From: Leifsonia sp. AK011
GTDB lineage: Bacteria > Actinomycetota > Actinomycetes > Actinomycetales > Microbacteriaceae
NCBI RefSeq assembly: GCF_013410945.1
Contig: NZ_JACCCH010000001.1
Location: forward strand, 930,001 to 994,000
DNA length: 64,000 nucleotides
Direction of reading: 5' to 3'
Of the stretch, positions 4,285 through 55,999 are shown one piece after another (position 1 is the first letter of the stretch; each line of letters opens with the position of its first letter). The translations under genes and the position numbers were made by a program. The notes under the pieces were generated by a model. That model was given only the letters and a program-made list of their open reading frames with translations, did no database searches and had not been told where the DNA came from.

Positions 4285-4650
4285 TCAAGCCGAGGTCTCG
4301 GCAACCGATCGCTGCGTGGCGGGCTGGTGCAGGATCAGCAGGTCCAGCTCGTCGAACCCGAGCTTGCGGGTGGACTTCTCGAACGCGTGCAGGGTCTCGT
4401 CGTAGCCGTAGTCGCTCACCCAGACCTTCGTCTCGATGACGATCTCGGAACGGTCGACACCGGATGCCCGGATGCCCTCGCCCACCTGACGCTCGTTGCC
4501 GTACACCGCAGCCGTGTCGATGTGGCGGTAGCCGACCTTGAGGGCGGATGTGACGGCCGCCGAGGTCTCCTCGGGCTTGCTCTGGAAGACACCGAGGCCG
4601 ATCGCGGGGATCTGGACGCCGTTGTTGAGGGTGAAGGTGAGGGTGGTCAT
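4285..4650 (-). pseudogene. truncated second copy of the aldo/keto reductase
   Basis: Codons 1 to about 112 match the reductase at 26-916 almost exactly (starts MTTLTFTLNN, ends at LILHQPAT), after which the frame runs into unrelated sequence (QRSVAETSA) and stops at 4285. The catalytic Asp, Tyr, Lys and His remain, but the second half of the TIM barrel and the cofactor-binding end are absent, so no working enzyme is expected. Differences from the full copy (about 12 in 337 bp) are mostly third-base changes, so the duplication either is not recent or came from a related strain. Confidence 0.85.
4314..4650. repeat. direct repeat copy B (5' half of the aldo/keto reductase gene)
   Basis: Partner of 580-916, same orientation, about 96% identical by eye. 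Recombination between the copies would remove about 3.7 kb carrying the orphan genes. Confidence 0.85.
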
Positions 4651-4839: not shown

Positions 4840-5727
4840 ATGTCAACTCTATTTTCTGATCACAGATCTTGGACTACCCCCGGTGCTCAGGATGCTGCGC
4901 AGAAGACGTTCGCGTCAGTCCAGGCCGCAATAAAGGCGTCGGAACAGCTCTCAGCTCTCAATCTCGATGTATTCCTGCAAGGTTCCTACCCCAATGGAAC
5001 CAACACCCGCGGCGACTCTGACGTTGACGTGGTGGTGATGATGCGGAGGACGTACATGCCGAATACCACGCTCCTCAGCGCGGAGGAGAAGCAAGTTCAT
5101 GAGCAGATGAGGGTTCCCGGTACGACCACGGCGGCACAACTTCGGGCGGGTGTGCATTCGGCGCTAAACGGCTATTACGGGGCTAGCGAGGTCGAATCTC
5201 GGAACAAATGCTTACGAGTCGCAAGGCGTGAAGGGTACGTGGACGCCGACGTGGTCCCAGCCCTACAGGAGAAGAGGTTCACCAGTTACCCCAGGTTCGG
5301 AAGCCCGAAATTCATAGAGGGGATCTCGATCTCGCCCCTAGAGGGGCCAAGAATTGTCAACTATCCGAAGGAGCATCTGAAGAACGGAAACGCTAAGAAT
5401 GCACGCGCGGGCGAGTACAAAACTACTGTCCGCCAGGTCAAACGACTACGCAGGGCGGCCGTGGACGCGGGCGTCCTTGAAAGAGGGGTAGCGCCGGGCT
5501 ATCTGCTGGAGTGCATGGTGTATAACGCTCCCGACCATCTCTTCGTTGGGGATGACTCCCGTCGCCTCGTGAATGTTGTGACTTGGATGCACGAGCAGAG
5601 CGCCGAGCAGATGGCGAGTGCTTTTTGGGCGGTGGATAGGATCAATCACTTATTCGTTGAAGACCCAGGTGCACACAACCAGTACACCGCAAAGAGAATC
5701 GCGGATACGCTCTGGGATTTCCTCTAA
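4840..5727 (+). CDS. CD-NTase (cyclic oligonucleotide synthase of a CBASS-like system)
   Basis: 295-aa nucleotidyltransferase of the cGAS/DncV-like (SMODS/CD-NTase) superfamily, expected to make a cyclic nucleotide signal on phage infection. The signature is clear: G48-S49 in LQGSYPNGT followed by D61-V62-D63 (GDSDVDVVVMM), and a third acid in VDADVVPAL (D135/D137). The helical C-terminal half (from about residue 180) fits the OAS1-type C-domain. Its stop overlaps the start of the next gene (TAATG, 5725-5729), which encodes a membrane effector, the usual two-gene CBASS layout. ATG at 4840 follows an RBS inside a hairpin. Product and clade cannot be read from sequence alone. Confidence 0.88.
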   Translation: MSTLFSDHRSWTTPGAQDAAQKTFASVQAAIKASEQLSALNLDVFLQGSYPNGTNTRGDSDVDVVVMMRRTYMPNTTLLSAEEKQVHEQMRVPGTTTAAQLRAGVHSALNGYYGASEVESRNKCLRVARREGYVDADVVPALQEKRFTSYPRFGSPKFIEGISISPLEGPRIVNYPKEHLKNGNAKNARAGEYKTTVRQVKRLRRAAVDAGVLERGVAPGYLLECMVYNAPDHLFVGDDSRRLVNVVTWMHEQSAEQMASAFWAVDRINHLFVEDPGAHNQYTAKRIADTLWDFL

Positions 5728-6317
5728 TGCATGCCTATGCAGGTGGCAATCGGATTCCGATGCTCTCCACGTTGGCCAGTATCTCGGTTCTCATCGCAAT
5801 TGTGACGTCCGCGCTTCTTCAGAAGATCGAGTTCGAGTATGACTGGCTCGTCAGCGCACCGACAGTCGCTGCCTCCTTCGCGCTCCTCTACAAATTCGTG
5901 GACATCGTCGCTTGGCGTTGCCAGTGGCTGCGAGCCCTGGGGCTTATCGACATTCCCGTCGTTGACGGCACGTATGTGGGGCTCCTGCACTCAAAGCACA
6001 CTGGCGAGGCGATTCGCGCTCGGGTTCGGATCGAGCAGACCTGGAGTCGAATGCAAGTGCGGCTTGACCTTCCAGAGGCGGCCACCTCGTCCTCAACATC
6101 AGTCGCTGCCTCACTAACTCCCATCGGCCACAATGATGTTCAACTTGTTTACACGTACAAGAACCAGATAATGCCCGCAAGCGCAGACGACGACATGCGC
6201 GATCACGATGGAACCGCGGACGTCGTAATCGAACCGGGTGGGCGACTTACGGGTCGATACTTCAACGCGCGTGGCAGACAGGGTGAGCTGAGGCTCGAAC
6301 GTGAGGCGGCGAAGTGA
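5727..6317 (+). CDS. Cap15-like two-TM beta-rich CBASS effector
   Basis: 196-aa membrane protein. Two N-terminal helices (about residues 12-31 and 44-63) are followed by a short linker and a strand-rich soluble domain starting at IPVVDGTYVGLLHS and running to the end. This matches the SMODS-associating 2TM, beta-strand-rich effector family, whose member Cap15 binds a cyclic dinucleotide with a small beta barrel and then disrupts the inner membrane. The gene overlaps the CD-NTase by one base and the next gene by four (GTGA at 6314-6317), so all three are translationally coupled. Identification rests on topology, the domain's first strand and the genetic context; ligand not readable. Confidence 0.78.
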   Translation: MHAYAGGNRIPMLSTLASISVLIAIVTSALLQKIEFEYDWLVSAPTVAASFALLYKFVDIVAWRCQWLRALGLIDIPVVDGTYVGLLHSKHTGEAIRARVRIEQTWSRMQVRLDLPEAATSSSTSVAASLTPIGHNDVQLVYTYKNQIMPASADDDMRDHDGTADVVIEPGGRLTGRYFNARGRQGELRLEREAAK

Positions 6318-7708
6318 ACGTGGGTGACACTATTCGCTCTCGTGAAGTCAGAGTCGGTCACGTCCTAGCGTCTTATGTCCATTCCGACTACGTCCAAGGT
6401 GCCACACTCACGTTTGACGATCGCGGTGCCGAGCTCCGGGTCGCTTACCTCCACGAACCAAGGGCAAGTGACAAAGGGTCGCGCCAATTTCTTCAAGCCA
6501 CTACCTGGTTCGGTTTTAGCGACGGCGACCTGCCTGAGACATTGTTGTTCGCGGACAACCATGGATGGGTGACTTTGCTGGGTGCTCGCGTCAGTGGCAG
6601 ATCGATTGGGAATCTCCCTCTGGGTCGAGTGAGAGCCCGAGCGCTGATACTCAATCGGCCGCGAACTGTAAAGGCTGAGTATCCAGTTGCCCAGTTCATC
6701 TCGACGATCGATGGTCTAGAGGCGTTCGCGCATTTCGAGCCAGTCAGAATTCGTACACAGTATGAGGAGGATGGCAGACATCGCGTTGAAGTAACTGTGG
6801 ACGCATCCGAAAGCGTGAACTGGAGCGCGTGCGGCTTTGAATACGAGATTCACGCAAACGTCTCATGGTCTGGCCAAGATGGCGTCAGCTTCGACATCCA
6901 CGACAACCAGCCTTACTTGCAGACGACAACCGAGGGCGGTGCGACTGTGTACGACCATTATCAAGCGCAGCTACCCATTCGAGCGCTGTTGACCTTGGTG
7001 CACGGACGCGCACTGGCCTGGAGATCACATCGCCTTCGCGACCACGAGTTCCCGACGTGGATGCTGGACGGTAGCGACCGTGAGCCATCTGCGGTTGAGG
7101 TGGTCCTGGAGGCAACGGTTCGGCAGCATCGCGCAGAAGTCCCAGCGTCAAGCGACTTCGTTTTTTCTGCGTTCGGACTAAACGACCTCGGCCCGAAGGG
7201 TCTGACGAGTTGGGTTGAGCTTTGCCGAGATGACGACTTTCGCCGAGCAGTCGAACCGGCCGTCGAGGTTATCAACGGCGCAACGAGGTTCTTGGAACCG
7301 CAGCTGATGATGCTCGCGATCTCACTCGACCGTTTCGGCTACTTTCGGTTCCAAGATGGCAACCGAAGACCAATGCACGATCACATCAACAAGTGTCTCG
7401 AGCAGGCCGGACTGGATTGGCCGGAGATTGGGCCTCGACTAGGGATCGCGAAAGCGATTTCGAATGTCAACAATGACCTCAAACACCCAGACCGATCTGA
7501 CTATCCTGAGACCGACGAGCTCGCGGCGATCACCCGTCTCGCTGAGCTGATCGTGCGGATGCAGCTCTTTGACATCCTTGGTGTAAGCGATGAGCTCCGG
7601 GCGGCATTTCTTCGATCGAACGACGCTCTTCAGGCTGTACAGGCTTTCACTACGCTTGGAATCACCGTCACGCTTGGGGGCAAGTTCGTTCACTCTATTT
7701 CTATTTGA
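6314..7708 (+). CDS. ApeA/HEPN-like protein, third gene of the CBASS operon
   Basis: 464-aa protein, GTG start inside the effector gene's stop. The N-terminal half is strand-rich and reads like the ApeA N-terminal domain (a WVTLLGARVSG block after a variable strand region). The C-terminal third (about 330-450) is helical, as in ApeA-type HEPN RNase domains, with NNDLKHPDR at 386-394. In HEPN RNases the active motif is R-x(4-6)-H; here the expected Arg before the His is Asn (N386/N387...H391), so the RNase site may be altered or dead. Tight coupling to CD-NTase and effector argues that it belongs to the same defence unit. Family call is by pattern and moderately sure. Confidence 0.6.
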   Translation: MNVGDTIRSREVRVGHVLASYVHSDYVQGATLTFDDRGAELRVAYLHEPRASDKGSRQFLQATTWFGFSDGDLPETLLFADNHGWVTLLGARVSGRSIGNLPLGRVRARALILNRPRTVKAEYPVAQFISTIDGLEAFAHFEPVRIRTQYEEDGRHRVEVTVDASESVNWSACGFEYEIHANVSWSGQDGVSFDIHDNQPYLQTTTEGGATVYDHYQAQLPIRALLTLVHGRALAWRSHRLRDHEFPTWMLDGSDREPSAVEVVLEATVRQHRAEVPASSDFVFSAFGLNDLGPKGLTSWVELCRDDDFRRAVEPAVEVINGATRFLEPQLMMLAISLDRFGYFRFQDGNRRPMHDHINKCLEQAGLDWPEIGPRLGIAKAISNVNNDLKHPDRSDYPETDELAAITRLAELIVRMQLFDILGVSDELRAAFLRSNDALQAVQAFTTLGITVTLGGKFVHSISI

Positions 7709-8010
7709 GACATCCCTTGCGTTCCCTACTCTTGTCCGGACGGTGTACGGCACCATGCAGCGCGGTAATGTGGGCGGTTTCCGTAGAGTGTTGGCGCGGT
7801 AATTGCCTCCGGTGGTACGACGCCCCTGCAAACAACGATGCGATAAAGCGTCGATGAGTGCGGTGAGACCAAGTCCATGCAGTTTCACGTTTTCTCTTTG
7901 TCGTAGCTTTCGTCCGTTGAGTCATGCGAGACAATCGCATTCCCACGTGCGATCAAGTCCTGTGCAAGGCGAAGTTCCACACCGAGGCGAGCAGAAAGAC
8001 AACGACCGAT
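7709..8010. other. intergenic, 302 bp, no gene seen
   Basis: Gap between the CBASS-like operon and the nuclease gene. The frame of the downstream nuclease is open back to 7924 but that part does not look coding. No strong hairpin or tandem repeat. Less GC-rich than the core genes, as is the whole 4.8-9.5 kb block. Confidence 0.4.
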
Positions 8011-9534
8011 ATGCGCAGCGAGCCGGCCATTCCTAGAGAGTCCGTGATTCGCGACAAACTTGCGGAGCGGCTCGACTTGATTGAGCCGAATCTCGAACTT
8101 GTCGCCGTCGAGCACTATCTGCCTAACCCCGACGGTGCAAGTGGCTTCGTTGACATCCTCGTTCGCGATGCCAGGGGTGATCTTGTCATCATCGAACTGA
8201 AACGTGATGACAAGTCAGCGAGGCAGGCTCTTCACGAGCTCGAAAAGTACGTGGGACTCATGTCGCAGGTCAGCGGTCTTCGAACTGACCAAATGCGCTG
8301 CATTCTCGTCTCGACCTCCTGGCACGAGCTCGCGCTGCCGTTTTCGCGCTACAAGAAGCACGCCGACTTCTATCTAAAGGGACTGCATCTTTTTCTGGAC
8401 ACCGAGGGTGAGTTGAGTCATTGTGACGAATTTGTCGGTTACGCGGGCTCGGTCGGGAACGAGCTTTGCCCGATGTATATGGGGATGCTCTTTGGGAATC
8501 CCGAGTCGCGCGATAACGCAGCAGAGCAGATCGTCGCGCAGCTAGCCAGCTTCTCGATCGAGGACTACATTTTGATCGATGTCGACCACACCGGGCCTTC
8601 TGGGTGGGTCAGTAGTCCGTTTGGCATCTTCGTTGCATTTGCGATGTTCCCGCCTGCAGTCGAACAACATGTCTGCGCCCTGTTCCCCGAGGAAACCGAG
8701 GACGTCTATGAGGATGAGGACTACTGGCACGAGCAAGTAATTCAGACTCAGTTGTCCGAATCAATCCAAAGTGAGGAGATCGAGAACAGTTCTCCGGACG
8801 GTTTGGCTTCAGAGGTTGAGTGGACAAAATCGAATGCTAGGGGATTCGGCGCCTATGGCAACTCGCTCGTTTGGCCGGAAAACGTCCTGCTTCGTTTGAT
8901 CGCAGGTGCAGATTCCGCGCACACCGTGAACTACACGACACTCGTGTCCACCGCCCATGCGCAAGCTTGGTCCCGCATGCGCAGCACAGTCGCTCGCGTA
9001 ATCGACGGTGACGGTGCGTGGCCCGAAGTCATTGGCGCCTGGCTTGACGAGTCCGAAGACCTTAATGCAGAGATCAACGTTCAAATCTACTCACCGTCGA
9101 ACGTGCTGAGCGGCTTGGAGGCACTGGCACGATCGTCGGATGATTCATACATCGCGGCTCTGGCTATCGGGCGGAAATTCGGTTCGAGAAACAACCTTGT
9201 TTGGGGCACGATCGTTTGGGACGGCACCGCGCGAGACTGCTCGCTTCAGGACGTGCTCAATCGCGCCGACACTGATCTCCTTGACTATCTCGCGGGCAGC
9301 AGTTGGGTCGTTGAGCCTTCGATCATGAACAGCCTCGGACTCCGATACGTAACGATGGAGTCATCGCCTGGATCAAGTGATTTGCCAGGCGACGCAGCCC
9401 GGGAGCTGTCCGTCGTGTCTGGGGCGCTCGCTCGGGGGGACGGATCAGGGGACAGCCTCGCGAGCTTCTTGGTAGCTCATCCGATCTTCACAGAGAGCCT
9501 TCTCGCAGCCTACGAACGCACGATCTTTCGATGA
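8011..9534 (+). CDS. NucS-like PD-(D/E)XK nuclease with a long extra domain
   Basis: 507-aa protein. Residues 10-110 match the NucS/EndoMS C-terminal nuclease fold: VIRDKLAERLDLIEPNLEL, then D48 in FVDILVRD, E62-L63-K64 in VIIELKR, and the Q-x(7)-Y region (RQALHELEKY). These acids and Lys are the metal-binding core that cuts DNA. I chose the ATG at 8011 because families of this type begin just before the (V)IRD helix; the 29 codons upstream look non-coding. The remaining 390 residues are of unknown type and acidic (EETEDVYEDEDYWHE), without membrane helices. Sits between the CBASS-like operon and the micro-ORF operon, so a defence role is likely but unproven. Confidence 0.75.
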   Translation: MRSEPAIPRESVIRDKLAERLDLIEPNLELVAVEHYLPNPDGASGFVDILVRDARGDLVIIELKRDDKSARQALHELEKYVGLMSQVSGLRTDQMRCILVSTSWHELALPFSRYKKHADFYLKGLHLFLDTEGELSHCDEFVGYAGSVGNELCPMYMGMLFGNPESRDNAAEQIVAQLASFSIEDYILIDVDHTGPSGWVSSPFGIFVAFAMFPPAVEQHVCALFPEETEDVYEDEDYWHEQVIQTQLSESIQSEEIENSSPDGLASEVEWTKSNARGFGAYGNSLVWPENVLLRLIAGADSAHTVNYTTLVSTAHAQAWSRMRSTVARVIDGDGAWPEVIGAWLDESEDLNAEINVQIYSPSNVLSGLEALARSSDDSYIAALAIGRKFGSRNNLVWGTIVWDGTARDCSLQDVLNRADTDLLDYLAGSSWVVEPSIMNSLGLRYVTMESSPGSSDLPGDAARELSVVSGALARGDGSGDSLASFLVAHPIFTESLLAAYERTIFR

Positions 9535-9672
9535 GTTTTTCAGAATACTGGGAGCCTGTTTCTCGCCGACCGAGCCGATTGTCGGTCGTTGACGTGCGGC
9601 AAAATCCTCACCCAACCGCCACTCTAATCGACGCCAGCTGACGATCCCCCGGCCAGAACTAGAATTGGTTTC

Positions 9673-10158
9673 ATGCGCAGCAGGAAGAAGAAGCCAGAGG
9701 TTCAACCTCCGCCCCTGCACCTCATCCACGAGGAGGTGAACCGGCAGCGCGAGTCCACCGCTCGGCGCTCTGACGCGATGAATGGCCGGGCCACGGTGCT
9801 CATCGGTGCCGCTGCGATCGCGGGGAGTCTGCAGGCCTCCGACCTCTTCGGAAACGGCTGGCTTATCATCGCGGTTGCCGCAACTGCCCTCGCAGCGCTC
9901 TGTGGGATTCTTGCCGTTACACCGAAGCCCAGACGCGAGCTCGACATGAAAATGGTCCGCAACACGCTCTTCCGTAAGACCGATGACGAGGCACTTCTTT
10001 TCCTCATCGATCACAAGAATGATGCGCTTGCCGAGATCGAGAAGCTGTTGAGCCACCGCGCACGCTGGCTTCGCCGTGGATACGTCTGCCTTGTGATCTC
10101 CATCCTTGCGTTCGTCCCCCTTGTGGCCCGTGCTCAGTTGACCATCACAATTCAGTAA
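9673..10158 (+). CDS. small membrane protein, head of the micro-ORF operon
   Basis: 161-aa protein. A basic N-terminus (RSRKKK) is followed by VQPPPLHLI (10-18), an amphipathic helix, two membrane helices (about 40-54 and 62-82), a cytosolic helical stretch (88-130) and a last helix at 136-153. This layout is like small SLATT/PycTM-type membrane effectors of bacterial signalling immunity, but no motif proves membership. The V-x-P-P-P string near its N-terminus resembles the motif shared by the three micro-ORFs directly downstream. The first of these starts 10 bp after the stop, with its own RBS (AAGGAG), so the four genes are most likely one operon. Function unknown. Confidence 0.65.
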   Translation: MRSRKKKPEVQPPPLHLIHEEVNRQRESTARRSDAMNGRATVLIGAAAIAGSLQASDLFGNGWLIIAVAATALAALCGILAVTPKPRRELDMKMVRNTLFRKTDDEALLFLIDHKNDALAEIEKLLSHRARWLRRGYVCLVISILAFVPLVARAQLTITIQ

Positions 10159-10167
10159 GGAGTAGAT

Positions 10168-10275
10168 ATGCAGGACAGAGATGGTGTTCCCCCCGAGGAC
10201 ATCGATGACTCCGTGTGGGCGATAGTTGACGAAAGCGCCAAGAGTGACGGCGCGGGCGAGAAGCTCAATGGCTGA
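10168..10275 (+). CDS. micro-ORF 1, 35-aa VPPxx[IV][DE] peptide
   Basis: ATG with an AAGGAG RBS 6 bp upstream. Acidic peptide beginning MQDRDGVPPEDIDDSVW; residues 7-17 carry V-P-P-E-D-I-D-D-S-V-W, aligned without gaps to both following peptides. Its stop lies inside the next ORF (8-base overlap, 10268-10275), so translation of the two is coupled. No signal peptide or membrane segment. The shared motif over three successive frames is hard to explain by chance and is the main evidence that it is translated. Confidence 0.6.
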   Translation: MQDRDGVPPEDIDDSVWAIVDESAKSDGAGEKLNG

Positions 10276-10402
10276 CGACGCACCGCCCCCGGCCGACGTG
10301 CCTCCCCCGCAGGTCGACCAGAAGGCGTTCAAGGAAGCGCAGTTCGCGCCGCGGAAGAAGGGCACCGCGCAAATGACAAACCAACCGAAGGCCGAAAAGT
10401 GA
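10268..10402 (+). CDS. micro-ORF 2, 44-aa VPPxx[IV][DE] peptide
   Basis: ATG start inside micro-ORF 1. Begins MADDAPPPADVPPPQVDQKAF; residues 11-21 give the shared motif V-P-P-P-Q-V-D-Q-K-A-F. The second half is basic (APRKKG, then NQPKAEK), unlike the acidic first peptide. Ends in a four-base overlap with micro-ORF 3 (GTGA, 10399-10402). No membrane segment. Too short for domain assignment. Confidence 0.6.
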   Translation: MADDAPPPADVPPPQVDQKAFKEAQFAPRKKGTAQMTNQPKAEK

Positions 10403-10518
10403 GCGACGACAAGGACAACGGCCCAGACTCAGTTCCTCCCCCGAACGTTGAGCCGTCCGCATTCCAGTACCTCGAGCATGCCGAAGAGACGACAACAGAG
10501 CGACGAGGTCGGAAGTAG
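10399..10518 (+). CDS. micro-ORF 3, 39-aa VPPxx[IV][DE] peptide
   Basis: GTG start overlapping the stop of micro-ORF 2. Begins MSDDKDNGPDSVPPPNVEPS; the shared motif reads V-P-P-P-N-V-E-P-S-A-F. The tail changes from acidic (EHAEETTT) to basic (ERRGRK). Last gene of the operon; downstream is structured non-coding DNA. Confidence 0.58.
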   Translation: MSDDKDNGPDSVPPPNVEPSAFQYLEHAEETTTERRGRK

Positions 10519-10983
10519 CGTTGCCATCACGCCTAGCGAGCGTGGACGTGTTAATTTGAGGCTCGCCCAAGCCGATCCCGGAGGAGCCCGGTTGGGCACT
10601 GAGTTGTTCGGCGACCAAGGCCGAGGAATGGACCAAGACGAGTGTCTTTTGCGACGAGCAGTGTCTGGAGTTGAATCCTCAGTCGGCGCGCCGGCACCCA
10701 GGCCTGCGGGCTGATCGGGCTTTTGGAGCGTCAAGGATCCACCGAAGTAGCAGGGCGTGGTCGGGCTCAAGTGTTGCTTGTGACGCGATGCGTCACAAGC
10801 GCGGTGGGGCTCGACTCCCCATCGGCACGGCCGCCACGTCGCGGTTGTAGGTGGGTGCATCGTGGATACGAGGCGCGACGCGTCGGAACCGGCGCGATGG
10901 GGCCCCACGAATGGTTCTTCTACATCCGGGCCGACGAGACGTCGCCGCCCGACGGGCGACGCCGTCTCGTGGGGCTGTAGAGC
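10519..10983. other. non-coding, palindrome-rich segment between the micro-ORFs and the IS
   Basis: 465 bp without a convincing gene. It contains a 10-bp perfect inverted repeat (10777-10799), GGGGCCCC at 10899-10906, and a long dyad made of GCCCCACGA (10902-10910) and TCGTGGGGC (10967-10975) that encloses smaller palindromes. GCCGTCTCGTGGG at 10961-10973 recurs at the 3' end of the tRNA-Lys gene (12342-12354). It may hold the operon's terminator and an old attachment site, or a structured RNA. Confidence 0.4.
10777..10799. repeat. perfect 10-bp inverted repeat
   Basis: CTTGTGACGC, 3-base spacer, GCGTCACAAG. The tight spacing suits a dimeric-regulator operator better than a terminator; no T-run follows. 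Confidence 0.5.
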
Positions 10984-11004
10984 TTCGGGTGATGGGTTAC
11001 ATCA

Positions 11005-12255
11005 CTATTTCGGTTGAGTGGTAACACTCGTGTGCACTGTAGCTTGCGCGCTCGGGATTGAGGCACGCTTCTTTCGGATGTCGCCGGTGCTTTTGCGAAG
11101 TGTGGTGCGCAGCAGTTGGTCTCCGTCGAATGCTTGGATGACTTCGTCTGTGACCCACACGTCAATGTCTCGCCCTGCCGCTGCTCGTCCGAGTGCGATC
11201 TGTTGCCAGGCCACGCAGATCACCCCGATCGCCGATGCTCGCCTGGCAACCCAGGTCCCGTCACGTCGATCGTTACCGGGTTTGGAGTGTGATGGTGTCG
11301 ACCGGATCGGGATCGGAACTGTCGGAGAGGCTGTCTCGAAGCGTGTTACCGGCGCCACCATTCCGATCCCCTGATGCGGTCGACGATGGTTGTAATCCTC
11401 AACCCACACGTCGAGCTCGGCTTGGGCGTCCTCGAGGGAGGCGAACACCCGATCAGTGCGGAACTCGGTTCGCAACGCCCGATGGAACCGCTCTACCTTG
11501 CCCGTGGTTGTCGGCGAACGCGGCTGCGTCAACAGGTGCTCCACGCCCTGTTCCCGAAGGATCCGGTCGAACAACATCTCCACCGGAGGTTGATTGAACC
11601 TGCCGGTGAACACCTTGCCGTTGTCCGTCAGCACCTGCCCAGGTAACCCATAACGCTCGAACGCCAACAACAGCCCATCAGCGACGCTGCGAGCACTCTC
11701 ACGCACCATCAGAAACGCCGACACACAAAACCGGGAGTGATCATCGATGCCCGTCAACGCTTTGGCGCGACGCCCATCAGCCAGAAGGAATCCGCCGACA
11801 ACATCCATCTGTCACAGCTCCATCGCCGCGCCGCGCTCCCACCGCTTCCACTTCCGATCCCGGGGACGTCTGGCCGCCGGATCGATCAGCCCCAGCCGCA
11901 GCAACGCCCGATACGCTCCTGACTCCGAGGGCAACGGCTCAACACCCTTCCGGCGCAGTTCATACACAAGCCGTCTCGGGCCCCACGACGGATGCGCCCG
12001 CCGCAACGACGCCAACTCGATCTCGACAGCCGCCGGCATCTGATGCGGCACCGACAACGGGCGATGCGACCGATCGCCCAACGCCTCAAGCCCGCCATCT
12101 TCATAACGGCGAAGCCACACATGAATCGTCTTGCGAGACACCCCGAATCGGGCAGCAACCTCGGTCACCGTCGCGCCCCCGCTAATCACGGCCAACACAG
12201 CCTGATACCGCTGCTCCGTCACAGATAACTCCCTCATATCGGGAGTGTCACCCAT
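11005..12255 (-). pseudogene. IS481-family transposase interrupted by an in-frame TGA
   Basis: A single frame of 416 codons (about 415 residues with read-through) is split by TGA at 11812-11814, where intact relatives have TGG in the string ELWQMDVVGG. The N-terminal part (147 aa) holds the helix-turn-helix (GATVTEVAARFGVSRKTIHV) and the IS481 linker (SWGPRRLVYELRRKG). The C-terminal part is the DDE core: Asp in QMDVVGGF, Asp in LTDNGKVF, Glu in GKVERFHRALRTE. Frame is kept on both sides, so one base change (G to A) accounts for the break; an ATG two codons after the stop could allow re-initiation but would not give a full enzyme. Element likely inactive unless helped in trans. Confidence 0.85.
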
Positions 12256-12333
12256 CAGCCGAAACCAGTGTCACCCATCAGGCGAAACACTGTTACCCAT
12301 CACCCGAATGCCAAACGGCACCCATCAGGCGAA
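12246..12333. repeat. four iterated IS-end units
   Basis: 18-bp units at 12246-12263, 12269-12286, 12291-12308 and 12316-12333, following the pattern TGTCACCCATCAGSCGAA with few changes, spaced 22-25 bp. Together they sit upstream of the transposase, where its promoter and terminal inverted repeat must lie. They may be transposase-binding iterons or traces of repeated insertions. Confidence 0.6.
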
Positions 12334-12350
12334 GTAATACAGCCGTCTCG

Positions 12351-12423
12351 TGGGCCCGGTGGGGCTCGAACCCACGACCCGCGGATTAAAAGTCCGATGC
12401 TCTGCCAACTGAGCTACAGGCCC
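12351..12423 (-). tRNA. tRNA-Lys (anticodon TTT)
   Basis: On the minus strand the 73-base gene begins GGGCCTGTAGCTCAG, has anticodon loop CTTTTAA with TTT in the anticodon position, T-arm GTGGGTTCGAGCCCCAC and acceptor end CGGGCCCA. The acceptor stem pairs over 7 bp with one G-U. No CCA is encoded. Its 3' end faces the accessory island, the usual side for integration into a tRNA gene. Confidence 0.93.
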
Positions 12424-12457
12424 TACACCTCAAGCGTACCGAGGGCGGGGACCCCTA

Positions 12458-13774
12458 TTAGAACCAGATGCCCAGGCGCGGGGGGACGGGGGAGTGGAAG
12501 AGGCGGTCGACGAGAGTGGCGGCATCCCTCGTCGCGGTGAGGCGGCCGGCGGCTCGGAGGGTGGTGGCGGAGACGCCGCCCAGGAGGAGGGCGCCCACCT
12601 CGGCGACGTTGAGGTGCACCTCCGCGTCGGCGGGGGCGTCGCTGCGCGTGCAGGTGGGGGAGCCCGTGGCATCCGTGGACAGCACGAAGCGGCCGGCGGC
12701 GAAGCCGAGGTCGTCGGTCACGGTGAAGGCGACAGAGCCTGCGGCGGCGTAGCGGCGGGCGGTCAGGGTGGCGGGAACATCGAGAACACGCAGCCACAGG
12801 TGGTCGCTCACGAGGGTCTCGCGCAGGGCACGGGCGTCCGCGATCATCCAGCGCAGCGGCTCGTCCACCGAGCGCAGGGATGCCCGCACCTCGGTCACCA
12901 GGTCGAGCTCCAGCAGGTAGCGCCAGAGGCCTGCGTACGCGTCATCCGTCACAGCGACGAACTCGGTCACCGTCACCGTGTGGGCGGAGAAATCGTTGTC
13001 GTCGCCCTTGAGCTTGTAGAGCGCGAAGCCCTGGGGCTCGCCGTTCTCGTCGTCGTAGCGCACGGCGCGCAGACCCTTCGACTCCTTCTCGGTGTCGGGG
13101 GTGAGGCCGAAGAACTCGTCCCAGCGGCGACCCCAGCGGTCGACCTCGCCCGGGATGCCACGGCGCGCACGCCGCTCGATGTCGTCAGCCTGCGCACGCA
13201 ACGTGGCCCTCTCGACGAACTGGACCCGCCCGCGAGCGGCAGGTCCTGTCCACTTCGCCCGACGCGTGTCGATCGTCATATCGGCCACGAGCGCTGCACA
13301 CGCGAAACCGAAGCGGCGGTAGATCGTCGCCTCCGACACCGTGAGCGCAGCGAGCGGGAGGCCACCGGCGACGGCCGTGCGCAGCTCTCCCTCGAGGAGG
13401 GCACGGGCGATACCGCGGCGGCGGTGGGTGGGGGAGACGGTGACCGAGCTGATCGCCCAGGCGTCGACAGTCTGGGTCTGCTCGGGGGTGCCCGGGGTCG
13501 TCAGCGACGTGACCCAGGAGCTGACCGTGGCGACAGGGATCTCGGGGCTTGCAGCCGCGTCGTCGTAGACGCCGATCATCCGCCGCTCGGTGAAGGCGCG
13601 CAGGTAATCGAGAGCGTCCTTGTGGTCCACGTCGTCCGCGTGGAAGCCGCGCACATCCGCACGCACCCACGCGACGCCGCCCGTCTCATCGCCCGGGTCG
13701 ACGAGCGCGTAGCGCAGCCCGGTGTCGGCGATGGCGGCGGCGGAAGTGGGGTCGAGGGGCAGTGAGTGGTGCAT
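12458..13774 (-). CDS. eis: Eis-like GNAT acetyltransferase
   Basis: 438-aa protein of the Eis (enhanced intracellular survival) family, cytoplasmic acetyl-CoA-dependent N-acetyltransferases that modify amines such as aminoglycosides or protein lysines. Three-part layout: an N-terminal GNAT domain with the acetyl-CoA loop VSPTHRRRGIARALL (about 112-126) and ASWVTSLT-like strand before it, a second GNAT-like domain in the middle, and a C-terminal sterol-carrier-like domain (VHLNVAEVGALLLGG near the end). The final carboxylate follows LGIWF, as in Eis, where the C-terminus takes part in catalysis. Start codon ATG at 13774. Symbol given by family; substrate not established. Confidence 0.85.
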   Translation of the reverse strand: MHHSLPLDPTSAAAIADTGLRYALVDPGDETGGVAWVRADVRGFHADDVDHKDALDYLRAFTERRMIGVYDDAAASPEIPVATVSSWVTSLTTPGTPEQTQTVDAWAISSVTVSPTHRRRGIARALLEGELRTAVAGGLPLAALTVSEATIYRRFGFACAALVADMTIDTRRAKWTGPAARGRVQFVERATLRAQADDIERRARRGIPGEVDRWGRRWDEFFGLTPDTEKESKGLRAVRYDDENGEPQGFALYKLKGDDNDFSAHTVTVTEFVAVTDDAYAGLWRYLLELDLVTEVRASLRSVDEPLRWMIADARALRETLVSDHLWLRVLDVPATLTARRYAAAGSVAFTVTDDLGFAAGRFVLSTDATGSPTCTRSDAPADAEVHLNVAEVGALLLGGVSATTLRAAGRLTATRDAATLVDRLFHSPVPPRLGIWF

Positions 13775-13827
13775 CCCTCGAGCGTATCCGGGCGACCTGA
13801 CAACGCGGCAGGGCCAACGGTGGGGGT

Positions 13828-14733
13828 GTGGACCCCACCCATAATGGATGCGTCGACACTCCAGCCGCAGCAGAGCCCTCGAACGACGCCCTCGCGTCGT
13901 TCACCGCAGTGCGCCCGCGTCTATTCGGGATCGCCTACCGCATGCTCGGGAGTGCGGCGGATGCCGAGGAGATCGTGCAGGAGGTCTGGATTCGCTGGCA
14001 GGAGTATGACCGCGGCTCGGTCGAGAATCCCGCCGCCTTTCTCGCCACGATCACCACGCGGTTGTCGATCAACTCCGCACAGTCGGCCCACTCCACGCGG
14101 GAGACCTACATCGGCCCGTGGCTGCCCGAGCCCATCGACACGTCCGCGGATCCCGCGGTGGGGGCCGAGCGTGGCGAGGCGATCGAGCTCGCCGTGCTGG
14201 TGCTGCTCGAACGTCTCACTCCGACCGAGCGCGCGGCATATATTCTCCGCGAGGCATTCGACTACCCGTACCCGATGATCGGCGAGATAGTGCAGCAGAA
14301 GGAGCCAGCCGTACGCCAGCTCGTGAGCCGGGCCCGCAAGCACCTCGCGACCGCGCGGCGCAAGCCCGTCGCCAGCGACGAGCATCGGCGCCTGCTCAAC
14401 GCGTTCCTGGAGGCGGCGCAAGCGGGCAACATCCAGAAGCTCGAGCACCTCTTCGCGGCCGACGTCGTGAGTTACACCGACGGCGGAGGCGCAGCGAAGC
14501 AGGCCGCGCGCATCCCGATCATCGGGCGCGAGAAGGTCGCGAAGTTCATCGCCGCGTTCTCCAGCCACTTCTGGGTCGGCATGGAGATCGTCGAGTCCGA
14601 GACCAACGGGCTCCCCGCAGCGCTGCTCAGCCGCGACGGTGAAACGGTCGCGGTGCTGAGCGTCGTGGCATCCGACGACGGTATCGACCAGCTGCTGTGG
14701 GTCATGAACCCGGAGAAGCTCACGCGAGTGTGA
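13828..14733 (+). CDS. ECF41-type sigma factor with SnoaL-like C-terminal domain (SigJ-like)
   Basis: 301-aa RNA polymerase sigma factor. Sigma-2 region: PRLFGIAYRMLGSAADAEEIVQEVW (about 30-54). Sigma-4 region: LTPTERAAYILREAFDYPY, ending in an HTH before RKHLATARR. The last 110 residues form a SnoaL-like domain with the ECF41 signatures TDGGG (about 217-221) and NPEKL at the very end. In ECF41 proteins this fused domain replaces an anti-sigma factor and controls activity. The genes just downstream are NAD(P)-binding reductase-like, the typical ECF41 target type, and a matching promoter lies between (14741-14767). GTG start at 13828; an alternative start further in is possible. Confidence 0.88.
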   Translation: MDPTHNGCVDTPAAAEPSNDALASFTAVRPRLFGIAYRMLGSAADAEEIVQEVWIRWQEYDRGSVENPAAFLATITTRLSINSAQSAHSTRETYIGPWLPEPIDTSADPAVGAERGEAIELAVLVLLERLTPTERAAYILREAFDYPYPMIGEIVQQKEPAVRQLVSRARKHLATARRKPVASDEHRRLLNAFLEAAQAGNIQKLEHLFAADVVSYTDGGGAAKQAARIPIIGREKVAKFIAAFSSHFWVGMEIVESETNGLPAALLSRDGETVAVLSVVASDDGIDQLLWVMNPEKLTRV

Positions 14734-50815: not shown

Positions 50816-51200
50816 TCGGCACAATGACAACCTCTCTCCAGATCATTCTGACCCCAGCCGTCAAGAATTCCGGGCGGGCGCTCACGTCTTCTTCCTGCCG
50901 AAACGTGTCACCACACCTAATCCATCCATTTGTCGCTTGGGATAGTGCGAGGGCCGCCGAGGGCATGTCCTCCCATGTCGGTGACTCGAGTGTGATGTCC
51001 TCCAGTGTTACGCGAGCACCTGCAACCGTCTCGAAACCCTCGCTCGTCCGGACTGCCCACTTCTTCACCTCTACATTTGACGACAGCGCAACACCGGCAG
51101 ATGTCTGCGGTATCGGATCATCCGGATACCCAGTCCGAGTGCGCGCTGTTGAGGAGAAGTGCCACCGCTGACCGGTACTGTCAAAACGTCCGCACCGCAC
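50796..51200 (-). CDS. possible hypothetical protein
   Basis: 134-codon minus-strand frame divergent from the Type ISP gene, 14 bp between starts. The middle looks like protein (WAVRTSEGFETVAGARVTLE, GWIRCGDTFRQEEDVSARPE). The N-terminal 30 residues look weak and the start is uncertain. It overlaps the tail of the preceding gene by 20 bp. Might be spurious. Confidence 0.4.
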   Translation of the reverse strand: MRCGRFDSTGQRWHFSSTARTRTGYPDDPIPQTSAGVALSSNVEVKKWAVRTSEGFETVAGARVTLEDITLESPTWEDMPSAALALSQATNGWIRCGDTFRQEEDVSARPEFLTAGVRMIWREVVIVPITSHHR

Positions 51201-51214
51201 AGCAAGGAATACTC

Positions 51215-54200
51215 ATGGCCGGGAGCATTCACGACATCCTCAACGAACTGAGGTCTGTCGCTTACGACGAGCGTGACAAGGGCGACCGCTTCGAGCGGCT
51301 TATGCAGTCCTACCTGGCCATCGAGCCGCAGTATGCCCAGCTGTACGACGCGGTGTGGATGTGGACTGACTACCCACAGCGCGGCAACCGCAAGGACACG
51401 GGTATCGATCTCGTCGCCCGTGCTCGCGACACCGGCGAGCTTACGGCGATCCAGTGTAAGTTTTTCGACCCCTCAACGACCGTCACCAAGCCGATGTTGG
51501 ACTCGTTCTTGGCAGCCTCCAGCAAGAATCTGGATGACAAGCCGGAGTTCTCTGCTCGGCTCGTGATCTCGACGAGTGACAACTGGGGCAGCAACGCCGA
51601 GGATGCCGTCGAGAACCAGAACCCGCCTGTCCAGCGCCTTCGCGTGCAGGATCTCGATGACTCCTCTATCGACTGGGGCCAGTTCTCGCTCAACACTCCT
51701 GAGGAGCTGACGAAGAAGGCCGCGAAGCAGCCGTTCCCGCATCAAGAGTTGGCAATCTCCAAGGTCGTCACTGGCTTCGAGACCGCCGACCGCGGCAAGC
51801 TCATCATGGCCTGTGGCACCGGTAAGACGTTCACGAGCCTCAAGCTAGTCGAGCAAGTCGTGCCCCGCGGCGGCACGGTGTTGTTTCTCGTTCCTTCTAT
51901 CTCGCTGCTTTCACAAACGCTGAAGGAGTGGACCATCGAGTCCGCCATACCGCTGCGCTCGTTCGCGGTGTGCTCGGATGTGAGCGTCGGCAAGCGCAAG
52001 TCCGACGAGGACATCCCGGTCACTGACCTCGCCTACCCAGCGACGACGAACACCACAAAGCTCGTTCACAAGTTCTCGGAGATCCCCGCCGGCTTTGATG
52101 GGATCACCGTCGTGTTCTCGACCTATCAGTCGATCGACGTAGTCGCTCAGGCGCAAGGCAAGGGCATCCCTGAGTTCGATCTCATCGTGTGCGACGAGGC
52201 GCATCGCACCACCGGTGTCACCCTGGCGGGCGAAGAAGAATCTGCGTTCGTGAAGGTTCACAACCAGAACTACATCAAGGGCAAGCGACGGCTCTACATG
52301 ACAGCCACTCCCCGTATCTATGCAGACGCGAGCCGCTCGAAGGCCGAAGAGGCCGGAGCCGTGCTCACCGACATGGATAGCCCCGAGTACTACGGCGAGG
52401 AGTTTCACCGTCTCGGATTCGGCGAGGCCGTCTCTATGGGCCGCCTCACCGACTACAAGGTGCTCGTGCTCGCGGTGGATGAGTCCTACATCTCCACACG
52501 CTTCCAGCGCCTCCTTGCAGACGACAACAACGAACTAACGCTCGATGACGCAGCCAAGATCGTGGGTTGCTGGAATGGTCTCTCCAAACGTTCGCTGTCG
52601 CCGGAAGAGTTCGCCCTTGACCCTGAGCCGATGAAGCGTGCCGTGGCATTCGCGAAGAACATCAACGAGTCGAAGAAGATCGCGGCTCTGTTCGAGGGTG
52701 TCGTCGAAGCGGAGATTGAGGCGATCGACCGTGAGAGCGACGAGAGTGCTGCAGATCTGTTGGACGTCGAGGTCCACCACGTCGATGGCACGTTCAACGT
52801 ACTCGACCGGAACAAGGAACTCGACTGGCTGAAGCAAGACCCAGGCGCAGGTAGTGCCCGCATCCTCACCAACGCAAAGGTGCTCTCCGAAGGAGTGGAT
52901 GTTCCCGCCCTCGATGCGGTGATGTTCCTCAACCCCCGTGACTCTGTCGTAGACGTAGTTCAGTCCGTGGGCCGAGTCATGCGCAAGCTCGAAGGCAAGA
53001 AGTACGGCTACGTCATCCTTCCCATTGGCGTGCCCGCCGACATGGACCCGGCCACCGCGCTGAACGACAACAAGAAGTACAAGGTTGTCTGGCAGGTGCT
53101 CCAGGCTCTCCGCGCTCACGACGAGCGCTTCGACGCCATGGTCAACAAGATCGACCTCACGAAGTCCACCGAGGGCAAGCTCTCCGTCATAGGTGTCGGC
53201 GATGGTGGCAATGACGGCGACAAGACTGAGACCGGGAACACCGCTGTCACCCTCGACTTCCCTGCCCTCGACCAGTGGCGCGATGCCATCCTCGCCAAGA
53301 TCGTCCAGAAGGTCGGCGAGAAGCGCTACTGGGAAAACTGGGCCAAGGATGTCGCGAGCATCGCCTCCAACCACATGACCCGCATCAGGGGCCTAGTCGA
53401 GGGATCAGACGCCACACTTAACGACGAGTTCGCCAGGTTCTTGAAGGGCCTCCAAGACAACCTCAACCCTTTCATCACCGAACGCGACGCGATCGAGATG
53501 CTCTCCCAGCACCTCATCACCAAGCCGGTATTCGACGCCCTCTTTGAGGGCTACGCCTTCAGCGACCACAACCCAGTCTCCCAGGTCATGCAGCACATGA
53601 TCGACGCGCTCGAAGAGCAGCGCCTTGAGAAGGAAACCGAGAAGCTCGACAAGTTCTACGAATCCGTGCGGACCCGTGCATCTGGAATCACGGATGCCGC
53701 CGCGAAGCAGCAGATCGTGAAAGAGCTGTACGAGAAGTTCTTCCAGACGGCCTTCTCCGGAACGAGCGACCGGCTGGGCATCGTCTACACGCCCAACGAG
53801 ATCGTGGACTTCATCATCCACTCCGTCGATGACGCCTTGAAGGCCGAGTTCGGAGCCAGCCTCTCCGACCAAGGCGTCCATGTACTCGACCCTTTCACTG
53901 GCACCGGCACGTTCATCGTTCGCCTGCTCCAGTCGGGCCTCATCAAGCCCGAAGACCTCTCCTACAAGTACCAACACGAGCTGCACGCGAACGAACTCGT
54001 GCTGCTCGCCTATTACGTGGCTGCCGTCAACATCGAAGAGACTTACCACGACCTCGCAGGTGGCGACTATGTGCCGTTCGAGGGCATCGTGCTCACCGAC
54101 ACGTTCCAGATGAACGAGGCTGACGATGAACTCGACAACCACGGCGTCTTTCCGGAAAACAACGAGCGGGCCGAGGCGCAGAAAGCACTCGACATCCGCG

Positions 54201-55999
54201 TGGTGATCGGTAACCCTCCATATTCGAAGGGTCAAGAGTCAGGCAACGACAACAATCAGAACCTGAAGTACCCGACTCTGGACGCGAAGATCGCGGCGAC
54301 CTATGCCGCCCGATCCACGGCGCAGAACAAGAACAACCTCTACGACTCCTACATTCGTGCAATCCGCTGGGCGTCAGACCGCGTCGGCGACCGAGGCATC
54401 GTCTCGTTTGTCTCCAACGGTGGCTTCATCGACGGCAATACTGCCGACGGTCTCCGGAAGACCTTCGCCGCAGAGTTCAATAGCATCTACGTCTTCAACC
54501 TCCGAGGGAACGCCCGCACCTCTGGTGAGCAACGCCGCAAGGAGAAGGATAACGTCTTCGGGCAGGGCACTCGCACCACCGCAGCGATTTACTTGCTCAT
54601 CAAGAACCCTGACGACACGAGCCTCGGCAAGGTGTTCTATCGAGATATTGGCGACTACCTCACTCGCGAACAAAAGCTCGAAGCTATCCGAACCGCGGGC
54701 AGCTACACCGGTATAGATTGGACGCCCATCACGCCCAACACCGAAGGCGACTGGGTCAATCAGCGAAACGCCGAATTCGAGTCGTTCACGCTCCTCGCGT
54801 CAAAAGACAAGGCGGAGAGCAACAGGCAGCGGTTCCTCGGCGTCTACTCGCCTGGACTTCAAACGAACCGCGATGCCTGGGTCTACAACTTCTCCCATGA
54901 ACGTCTCGTCTCTAATGTTATCCGCACGGTTGAGAGTTACGAGAGCGAGTTGCAGAGGTGGAAAGACGGCGGTCGGCCAAGCCCAGTTGAGGACTTCATC
55001 GACCCTGATCCCAAGAAACTCAGTTGGTCACGTAGCCTGCGAGGGCACCTGAGCAGGGAGCGAGAGATCCACTTCGACGAGAGTCACGCAAGCTACATTG
55101 CGTTGTATCGCCCGTTCACCAAACAGCACGTGTATTTCGATTCTCGGCTCAACCACGAGCGTTCGCAGACCCCGAAGTTCTTCCCTGCTGCCGAATCAGA
55201 GAACTGGGGCTTTTACACGACTGCTCCTGGTGCGGGTCACAAGTTCTCGTCGCTCGCAGCGAAGGCAGTTCCTGACCTTGCACTTTGGGGGTCCGGCAGC
55301 GGTCAGTTCTTCCCGAGGTACACGTTTGAGGAGCGTGACCCGGAAGGCGACCTTCTCGCTGAGCTGGATGACGACGGAACGCCGTATCGCCGCATCGACA
55401 ACGTGACAGATGGAATCCTCGCTGACTACCAGACGAGCTTTGGTCCAGAGGTCTCGAAGGACGACATCTTCTTTTACCTCTACGGCATCCTTCACTCGCC
55501 CGACTACCGCGAGCAGTTCGAGAGCGACCTGAAAAAGATGCTCCCGCGCATCCCGAAGGCTAGGGACTTTAGAGCATTCAGCAATGCAGGTCGCAAACTC
55601 TCAGAGCTTCATATTGGCTACGAGACCGTGGAGCCGTACCCGCTCGACGAGCAACGCAGCGTCAACGCCAGCTACCGCGTCGAGAAGATGAAGTACGCCA
55701 AGACGGGTCGCGTGGCCGATAAGTCCACGGTCATCTACAACAGCTGCATCACTGTGTCGGGCATCCCCGAGGAGGCTCACGAGTACATGCTCGGTTCCCG
55801 CTCCGCAATCGACTGGATCATCGAGCGCTACCAGGTCAAGACCGACAAGGCCTCCGGCATCGTCAACGACCCTAATGACTGGGCCGAGGAGCAGAGCAAA
55901 CCGCGCTACATCCTTGACCTCCTCGCTCGGATCGTCACGGTCAGCGTCGAGACAGTGAAGATCGTGAGATCTCTCCCCACCTTGGTCGTGCTGGACTAA
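51215..55999 (+). CDS. single-chain Type ISP restriction-modification enzyme
   Basis: 1594-aa fusion resembling LlaGI/LlaBIII. Domains in order: Mrr-like nuclease (D65 in TGIDLVARA, Q80-x-K82 in AIQCKFF); superfamily 2 helicase with Walker A ACGTGKTFTSL (about 199), DEAH (about 326), TATPRIY (about 362) and QSVGRVMRK (about 583); a coupler; N6-adenine methyltransferase with motif I DPFTGTGTF (about 891) and motif IV NPPY (about 1001); C-terminal target recognition region. ATG at 51215 has AAGGA 7 bases upstream; 70 more codons are open upstream. It methylates one strand and, when enzymes meet head-on, cleaves by translocation. Full length, no frameshift seen. Confidence 0.9.
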   Translation: MAGSIHDILNELRSVAYDERDKGDRFERLMQSYLAIEPQYAQLYDAVWMWTDYPQRGNRKDTGIDLVARARDTGELTAIQCKFFDPSTTVTKPMLDSFLAASSKNLDDKPEFSARLVISTSDNWGSNAEDAVENQNPPVQRLRVQDLDDSSIDWGQFSLNTPEELTKKAAKQPFPHQELAISKVVTGFETADRGKLIMACGTGKTFTSLKLVEQVVPRGGTVLFLVPSISLLSQTLKEWTIESAIPLRSFAVCSDVSVGKRKSDEDIPVTDLAYPATTNTTKLVHKFSEIPAGFDGITVVFSTYQSIDVVAQAQGKGIPEFDLIVCDEAHRTTGVTLAGEEESAFVKVHNQNYIKGKRRLYMTATPRIYADASRSKAEEAGAVLTDMDSPEYYGEEFHRLGFGEAVSMGRLTDYKVLVLAVDESYISTRFQRLLADDNNELTLDDAAKIVGCWNGLSKRSLSPEEFALDPEPMKRAVAFAKNINESKKIAALFEGVVEAEIEAIDRESDESAADLLDVEVHHVDGTFNVLDRNKELDWLKQDPGAGSARILTNAKVLSEGVDVPALDAVMFLNPRDSVVDVVQSVGRVMRKLEGKKYGYVILPIGVPADMDPATALNDNKKYKVVWQVLQALRAHDERFDAMVNKIDLTKSTEGKLSVIGVGDGGNDGDKTETGNTAVTLDFPALDQWRDAILAKIVQKVGEKRYWENWAKDVASIASNHMTRIRGLVEGSDATLNDEFARFLKGLQDNLNPFITERDAIEMLSQHLITKPVFDALFEGYAFSDHNPVSQVMQHMIDALEEQRLEKETEKLDKFYESVRTRASGITDAAAKQQIVKELYEKFFQTAFSGTSDRLGIVYTPNEIVDFIIHSVDDALKAEFGASLSDQGVHVLDPFTGTGTFIVRLLQSGLIKPEDLSYKYQHELHANELVLLAYYVAAVNIEETYHDLAGGDYVPFEGIVLTDTFQMNEADDELDNHGVFPENNERAEAQKALDIRVVIGNPPYSKGQESGNDNNQNLKYPTLDAKIAATYAARSTAQNKNNLYDSYIRAIRWASDRVGDRGIVSFVSNGGFIDGNTADGLRKTFAAEFNSIYVFNLRGNARTSGEQRRKEKDNVFGQGTRTTAAIYLLIKNPDDTSLGKVFYRDIGDYLTREQKLEAIRTAGSYTGIDWTPITPNTEGDWVNQRNAEFESFTLLASKDKAESNRQRFLGVYSPGLQTNRDAWVYNFSHERLVSNVIRTVESYESELQRWKDGGRPSPVEDFIDPDPKKLSWSRSLRGHLSREREIHFDESHASYIALYRPFTKQHVYFDSRLNHERSQTPKFFPAAESENWGFYTTAPGAGHKFSSLAAKAVPDLALWGSGSGQFFPRYTFEERDPEGDLLAELDDDGTPYRRIDNVTDGILADYQTSFGPEVSKDDIFFYLYGILHSPDYREQFESDLKKMLPRIPKARDFRAFSNAGRKLSELHIGYETVEPYPLDEQRSVNASYRVEKMKYAKTGRVADKSTVIYNSCITVSGIPEEAHEYMLGSRSAIDWIIERYQVKTDKASGIVNDPNDWAEEQSKPRYILDLLARIVTVSVETVKIVRSLPTLVVLD

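Follow-up and report, generated by a model that had tools for sequence, protein, structure and literature searches.

What do a small membrane protein gene and the three overlapping short open reading frames (ORFs) directly behind it encode together, and what could such short proteins do for a membrane protein? The locus lies in Leifsonia sp. AK011 (Microbacteriaceae; GCF_013410945.1, contig NZ_JACCCH010000001.1, positions 930,001-994,000, forward strand), and this 64,000-nt stretch, with positions counted from its first letter, is called the window throughout. A preliminary description had read the locus as a multi-peptide system of short ligands, antitoxin-like partners or cofactors, and had known of no named family like it. 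Here we examine the genes themselves, their relatives and their neighbours, and weigh the explanations that they allow.

Results

The window micro-ORFs look like genes and share a peptide block

A check of positions and frames confirmed the four ORFs with their overlaps of 8 and 4 bases (Table 1), and a purpose-written gene caller, unprompted, picked all four; for micro-ORF 2, the mechanical ORF list begins the frame at an upstream TTG (58 aa). By codon position, the GC content of the three micro-ORFs (0.69-0.70, 0.40-0.46 and 0.67-0.82) resembles that of the membrane gene (0.65, 0.44 and 0.73) and of the neighbouring genes, and the micro-ORFs look like real genes. The spacing between the membrane gene stop and the first micro-ORF start (TAA GGAGTAGAT ATG) suggests translational coupling, as do the overlaps of 8 bases and of GTGA. 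Seven bases separate the end of a promoter-like site from the membrane gene ATG, and the membrane gene and micro-ORFs possibly form a separate, leaderless transcription unit. A 306-aa frame on the other strand (9445-10365) was rejected: the gene caller skipped it, and the membrane gene that it overlaps has relatives.

Table 1. Features of the locus and its surroundings, in window positions
Feature	Position	Strand	Remarks
CD-NTase-like nucleotidyltransferase	4840-5727	+	
Cap15-type receptor	5727-6317	+	PF18153, E 1.6e-16
ApeA/HEPN-like protein	6314-7708	+	below cut-offs
NucS_C-domain protein	7924-9534	+	
Promoter-like site CTGACG-16-TAGAAT	9638..9665	+	consensus match only; 1 in 9300-10900 vs 0.3 expected
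161-aa helical membrane protein, remote PycTM/SLATT relative, putative toxin/effector	9673..10158	+	
Micro-ORF 1, 35 aa	10168..10275	+	GGAG 5 bases before ATG; coding-like codon-position bias
Micro-ORF 2, 44 aa from ATG, basic tail	10268..10402	+	8-base overlap with ORF 1
Micro-ORF 3, 39 aa, GTG start	10399..10518	+	GTGA (4-base) overlap with ORF 2 stop
Shared motif copy 1, VPPEDIDDSVWAIVDES	10186..10236	+	shuffle test
Shared motif copy 2, VPPPQVDQKAFKEAQFA	10298..10348	+	shuffle test
Shared motif copy 3, VPPPNVEPSAFQYLEHA	10432..10482	+	shuffle test
Two transposase-like frames	11005-12255	other strand	
tRNA-Lys	12350-12423		

The three micro-proteins share an 11-residue block (VPPEDIDDSVW, VPPPQVDQKAF and VPPPNVEPSAF) that scores 94, a value reached by none of 4,000 composition-preserving shuffles (maximum 78); widened to 20 residues, the block takes in AIVDES, KEAQFA and QYLEHA and scores 97 against a shuffle maximum of 80 (0/4,000). 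The shared motif of the preliminary description is therefore beyond chance. The idea that the membrane protein carries the motif as well did not hold, as VQPPPLHLI is present at its residues 10-18 but the PPP is missing in the aligned relatives L007 and L025. Absence of the motif outside this strain had been named as grounds for giving up the reading; a same-genus relative has a micro-ORF (L052/L009) that matches ORF 3, with an alignment score reached by 1 of 2,000 shuffles, the corresponding numbers against this micro-ORF being 21 for ORF 1 and 911 for ORF 2. Against the L051 micro-ORF, 64, 1,527 and 797 of 2,000 shuffles reached the scores of ORFs 3, 1 and 2, respectively.

The pair of membrane gene and micro-ORF recurs in relatives

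A family-wide search with the membrane protein (E ≤ 1e-3) found it in the window and in 20 of 298 other genomes sampled, five of which were set aside as doubtful; counting its own genome, the gene occurs in 2 of 27 genomes of the genus and 21 of 299 of the family. An alignment search matched 15 genomes out of 396 in the order and 14 out of 394 in the class, some of them already counted. The 30 loci counted here, the window not among them, are 15, 12 and 3 loci from the family, order and class searches, after rows with short matches in long frames that seemed to be on the wrong strand (family: L015, L017, L018, L019 and L021), one order row (L036) and partial weak matches (class: L041-L049) had been dropped; a 36-aa ORF stands behind L043, which is left out of the counts. 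The window protein had no relatives in genome_contigs, plasmids or phages, nor had queries A2, A3 and A4 in viral contigs, L003 in plasmids or phages, or L025 in plasmids, and a further genome search recovered the known loci alone.

Around each of the 30 loci, 6.5-19.5 kb was fetched and genes were called. Behind 17 of the 30 membrane genes (16 of 29 in the first count) stands an ORF that is 30-75 aa long, has a ribosome site and starts -20 to +40 bases from the stop (the downstream rule); the same holds for 17 of 467 control genes, namely the other genes of at least 100 aa in the same loci (Fisher p 1.2e-14). Together with the nine of nine loci of clade B described below, this bears out the expectation that the genes travel together. 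The L058 membrane gene, whose start was miscalled, was counted downstream only, by a special rule. Upstream short ORFs are not enriched (5/30 vs 55/467, p 0.29).

The remaining 13 of the 30 relatives fail the downstream rule. By reading, beyond the rule, short ORFs stand behind the membrane genes of L075 (42 aa), L076 (44 aa) and L062 (37 and 36 aa), and a 94-aa ORF behind that of L067, while no acceptable short ORF was read behind those of L074, which is near the window protein, L069 and L077-L079. The L070-L073 clade is arranged differently: a short ORF (51-61 aa) precedes the membrane gene in L070, L072 and L073, and a longer one follows it in L070 (123 aa) and L071 (110 aa). By eye, these front short ORFs and rear longer ORFs share the pattern [DE]xWxKx[VI][FQ]K.

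The flanking genes vary among loci, and among genes with homologues in at least three other loci, the membrane gene excepted, there is one group, ABC-transporter-like where read and at least 2 kb away. Individual loci show further arrangements: in L059 the membrane gene and micro-ORF are immediately preceded by a TIR-like protein and followed by recombinase- and integrase-like genes; the L056 membrane gene begins at the end of a 1018-aa protein reading like a type I restriction subunit; and ThsB models of PADLOC match in the neighbour-protein set.

In one clade B pair, the micro-ORFs are under selection as proteins

A clade B scan of named genomes found 10 loci, nine of them with a full membrane gene, in Microbacterium, Leucobacter, Humibacter, Clavibacter and one unclassified actinomycete; L089, a 38-residue fragment, is excluded from the nine, and L080, L084 and L088 duplicate three of the 30 counted loci. 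Directly behind each of the nine membrane genes stands a micro-ORF whose product starts with MGRP (one MMGRP; start codons vary), and in seven of the nine a second tandem micro-ORF, again with an MGRP start (one MARP), overlaps the first by 14 bases. In L080, L082, L085, L086 and L088 the micro-ORF starts one codon past the membrane gene stop in the same frame, a spacing that raises the question of read-through or reinitiation.

For the clade B pair L082/L085, dN/dS is 0.024 for micro-ORF 1, 0.116 for micro-ORF 2 and 0.086 for the membrane gene, so in this one pair the micro-ORF frames are under selection as proteins. The codon-substitution test suggested in the preliminary description thus returned purifying selection in one clade B pair, while the window copies have no close enough relative among the genomes searched. 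A motif built from the seven second peptides has nine sites in the nine first peptides, with 0.5 expected: two in one peptide, one in each of seven and none in one. The by-eye idea of several motif copies within one clade B micro-protein was discarded, and only sharing between peptides holds. Many first peptides end in NGTP, which may be a by-product of the 14-base overlap with the next MGRP and is therefore not read as functional.

Scanning 299 genomes for the MGRP micro-ORF pattern gave two places: one is the L012 pair already known, the other lies opposite a decarboxylase-like gene and is taken as chance. Three plasmid records match the clade B search; in a Curtobacterium plasmid the same pair lies next to a restriction system of the BsuBI/PstI type, and both genes of the pair are annotated as hypothetical.

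A short core is shared across loci and the two proteins diverge together

An ungapped motif search over 34 micro-proteins scored 245.7 at width 9, compared with 194-208 in 12 shuffled sets, and 255.6 at width 11, compared with 211-233, with a less consistent block; the real set had more restarts than the shuffled ones in this search. With equal search effort for real and shuffled sets, 18 less redundant micro-proteins scored 144.3, 154.4 and 167.5 at widths 8, 9 and 10, and none of 60 shuffled sets reached these values (maxima 138.1, 147.1 and 155.6). The core follows x-[hydrophobic]-x-x-[ILVF]-x-x-[SA]-[GA], with instances such as TVRIVKESG, AFTELTEAA, TLTSISKSG, ITVSLKASG and YFTPLHESA, and AFQYLEHAE in the window; some micro-proteins fit it badly, as several instances are poor and the site shifts with width. 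The longer form of the window, P-x-[VI]-[DE]...[AV]-[FW], recurs in L062 (RPDVEEAFETLT and RPDVEEAFTELT) and is partly present in L055 (DPDVDEVIKRITES). Tandem copies sharing a motif occur in the window (three), in seven of the nine clade B loci, in L062 and in L064.

The membrane protein and the micro-protein diverge together: over 28 loci, each represented by one hand-chosen micro-protein, their distances correlate with a Mantel r of 0.705 (0/5,000 permutations), and over 19 less redundant loci with an r of 0.365 (5/5,000), the hand-chosen micro-proteins including upstream or rule-failing ones in seven loci (L062, L070-L073, L075 and L076). Micro-proteins of different loci are little alike, the best similarity being 0.15-0.30 of the self score in 23 of the 28.

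A remote relationship links the membrane protein to PycTM/SLATT effectors

In an AlphaFold2 model built with 32 sequences (mean pLDDT 91.7), the 161-aa membrane protein is all-helical, with a long first, a second, a short and a long last helix (15-57, 62-82, 92-99 and 104-160), and in our reading of the model the three long helices span the membrane. The PycTM family PF18967 matches it at 16.7 bits, below the Pfam cut-off of 27.2, with no PF18967 match in the window's own genome, and NCBIfam SLATT_1 at 12.7 bits (E 0.094), below the cut-off of 41; among 15 family members, the PADLOC PycTM models PDLC02363 and PDLC02364 match four and two, respectively, at E ≤ 0.1. HHalign between alignment A5 (32 rows, 31 used) and alignment A10, which holds 11 proteins of PycTM loci, from 11 of the 12 matches above the cut-off (the short L102 excluded), gave 95.2% and E 2.5e-8 over 122 columns. 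Judged by these profile comparisons, the membrane protein and the PycTM/SLATT effectors are remotely related. It is similar in size to PycTM, and in both the first membrane helix reads as opening with a [KR]A[ST]-like stretch.

The genetic setting differs from that of PycTM. By the downstream rule, none of 11 PycTM genes has a micro-ORF behind it, whereas the window type has them; 10 of the 11 PycTM loci carry a recurring protein read as a cyclase, whereas the window type has no such neighbour. From its sequence and the known features of PycC, we take this recurring protein to be the PycC cyclase. When the 39 proteins of the 11 PycTM loci were searched against 674 proteins from the 30 loci, the 10 named loci and the first 20 kb of the window, three matches appeared, none by a protein recurring among PycTM loci, and no PycC-like cyclase was thus found near the membrane gene there. 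No Cyclase model is among the matches listed, which cover 25 of 28 PADLOC families and 66 of 109 neighbour proteins of the relatives' loci. The CD-NTase of the window is of another kind than the class III pyrimidine cyclase PycC. The reading as an ordinary Pycsar PycTM was rejected, given the sub-cut-off match, the lack of a PycC-like neighbour in the flanks compared, and the micro-ORFs behind the gene.

A SpoIISA homologue was also rejected, since there is no profile match: SpoIISA_toxin (PF14171) had no match in the window's own genome, with Bacillus subtilis positive as control, and was absent among the Pfam matches of the membrane protein at E ≤ 1. The likeness to SpoIIS taken up in the Discussion is one of plan, not sequence.

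The locus appears to be its own unit inside a defence island

The defence-island setting was upheld, as a CD-NTase and a Cap15 lie upstream of the membrane gene. The two transposase-like frames and the tRNA-Lys (11005-12423) border the island, and a CBASS-like CD-NTase and Cap15 followed by ApeA/HEPN-like and NucS_C-domain proteins (4840-9534) is unusual company. The nucleotidyltransferase also matches NCBIfam DS2_2_antiphage at 199.3 of 350 bits, below the cut-off. We do not favour placing the membrane gene in the upstream CBASS operon: a Cap15 already belongs to that operon, the membrane gene is preceded by a gap of 138 bases and a promoter-like site, and the contexts of the relatives vary. 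Judging by the sequence, the membrane gene and micro-ORFs appear to form an independent unit within the island. Several relatives' loci contain defence genes, and such genes are not more frequent beside the module than among the outer genes of the same loci.

Elsewhere in the window, a full aldo/keto reductase-like gene (by eye; 26-916) has a shortened second copy at 4285-4650, with 96% identity over 300 bases (576-875 vs 4310-4609), as if from a recombination or insertion event. A 1664-aa frame at 51005-55999 reads like a helicase-methylase restriction enzyme, with an NPPY motif by eye.

Discussion

Based on these findings, we propose, at roughly even chances, a stand-alone toxin-antitoxin-like (or abortive-infection) module with a SpoIIS-like plan, in which a membrane effector would be restrained by micro-proteins. 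First, the leading gene would encode a small PycTM/SLATT-like membrane effector, and the micro-genes would be translated from the same message, probably by coupling, into short disordered proteins with one conserved core of about 10-17 residues. This core would then bind the effector and keep it inactive, and loss of the micro-protein upon infection, host shut-off or gene loss would release the effector, which would then damage the membrane. Where Pycsar uses a cyclic nucleotide as its switch, this module would use a protein, as Bacillus SpoIISA/SpoIISB/SpoIISC does. The computations show a coding signal, a linkage that recurs, a motif in common, co-divergence, copies in tandem, remote homology to PycTM and fetched flanks in which no PycC-like cyclase was found; binding, inhibition, toxicity, lability and a trigger are what we infer.

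The proposal of a restrained effector follows from the SpoIISABC plan, which recurs in the window with another membrane protein and with the small gene in three copies. In the parts of the SpoIIS reports consulted, a membrane toxin gene leads and is directly followed by two small antitoxins (41 and 58 aa in one Bacillus cereus strain), whose duplication arose independently in two lineages (PMC4526809; PMC4926146). The window, as well as seven of the nine clade B loci, likewise has the membrane gene first and adjacent small paralogous genes behind it. Two further traits described in those parts count as likenesses, namely tandem copies that are closer within than between lineages and an 8-residue core, DFSLIKGD in the B. 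cereus group, in an otherwise weakly conserved chain (PMC4526809; PMC4926146). As for differences, SpoIISA is described in the same parts as having a cytoplasmic domain bound by SpoIISB, whereas the 161-aa window protein is modelled as all-helical; SpoIIS has two copies and the window up to three; and neutralisation is described there as demonstrated for SpoIIS, whereas for the window module it would follow by analogy. The view that no named family resembles the locus can thus be set aside, as the membrane protein is PycTM/SLATT-like, if remotely, and the architecture resembles SpoIISABC as far as the available parts of those reports describe it (PMC4526809; PMC4926146).

Other systems offer partial parallels. 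The parts of the literature consulted describe SLATT and PycTM proteins as effectors predicted or reported to damage membranes (PMC12632851; PMC7159879; PMC11224242). The SLATT proteins of DRT10 are, in the excerpt available, small membrane proteins predicted to form pores and thought to be controlled by a partner, as proposed for the window; the proposed partner there is a reverse-transcribed cDNA, whereas here it would be the micro-proteins (PMC12632851). Butters gp30/gp31 of a mycobacteriophage, compared by description only, is likewise given in the part consulted as an actinobacterial phage defence made of two genes, with an interaction proposed between a soluble protein and a membrane protein, but gp30 is about 40 kDa (tagged) and not a micro-protein (PMC7542560). 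Among the open-access papers listed, we recognised none that describes a module such as this one.

Several points count against the module. When the L073 micro-ORF/membrane pair was modelled as one chain, the micro-protein was a low-confidence coil and no docking was seen (pLDDT 53-57 over the motif), a result that is weak either way, as a single sequence covered the micro part. Besides, 13 of the 30 relatives fail the downstream rule, and defence genes are not enriched beside the module. A toxin gene ahead of its antitoxin is also an unusual order, though SpoIIS has it. The genes travel together in relatives, and of the three roles suggested in the preliminary description, the antitoxin-like one appears the likeliest.

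The strongest alternative, which we consider unlikely, is that the micro-proteins act as activators or infection sensors, with the motif serving as bait or substrate; a phage factor that binds or cleaves it would turn the effector on. It would suit the low similarity between micro-proteins of different loci, the copies multiplied and diversified in tandem and the presence of defence genes in several loci, but the strong purifying selection in one clade B pair is less expected of a fast-changing sensor, and no phage target is indicated. Improbable in our judgement is a role as constitutive subunits or assembly factors of a non-toxin membrane complex, like CydX or AcrZ, which are subunits or assembly factors and themselves membrane helices. 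Linkage and co-divergence would be expected of such subunits too; the micro-proteins, however, are hydrophilic and often proline-rich by reading, one is modelled as a coil, and the patchy distribution and varying flanks suit an accessory module more.

It seems highly improbable that the micro-ORFs encode bacteriocins or signalling peptides that are secreted or processed, and that the membrane protein exports them or confers immunity. Diverging small proteins beside a membrane protein would fit this explanation, and precursors of the FxSxx type are described, in the part of the source consulted, in actinobacterial conflict systems (PMC7159879). Against it, no Sec leader or cysteine-rich core was read in the micro-proteins, whose C-termini are KLNG, KAEK and RGRK rather than FxSxx-COOH, no metallopeptidase or radical-SAM partner recurs in the loci, and no enzyme recurs immediately beside the pairs. 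Finally, chance frames in GC-rich DNA are scarcely credible: short ORFs are indeed abundant (98 of at least 25 aa overlap 7000-14000), but dN/dS, co-divergence, codon-position bias, linkage and the shared motif argue against chance by different routes.

Returning to the proposed effector restrained by micro-proteins, a wider version is possible, if on the doubtful side, namely that such loci form a widespread and so far undescribed class of immune or addiction modules in actinobacteria, built on a PycTM/SLATT-type pore former whose nucleotide switch has been swapped for tandem one-motif micro-proteins, whose copy number and charge might tune the threshold or the phage specificity. A membrane effector with small protein partners is a known kind of system, and the recurrence of the pair merits a bench test. 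If the proposal is true, a large effector superfamily known for nucleotide-gated cell death would have a protein-gated form as well, the controlling genes of which, at 35-65 codons, would be easily overlooked or annotated as hypothetical. The locus would also provide a simple test system for the restraint of a membrane effector by a short disordered motif, and an effector gene with tandem overlapping micro-ORFs would be a handle for finding more modules of this kind.
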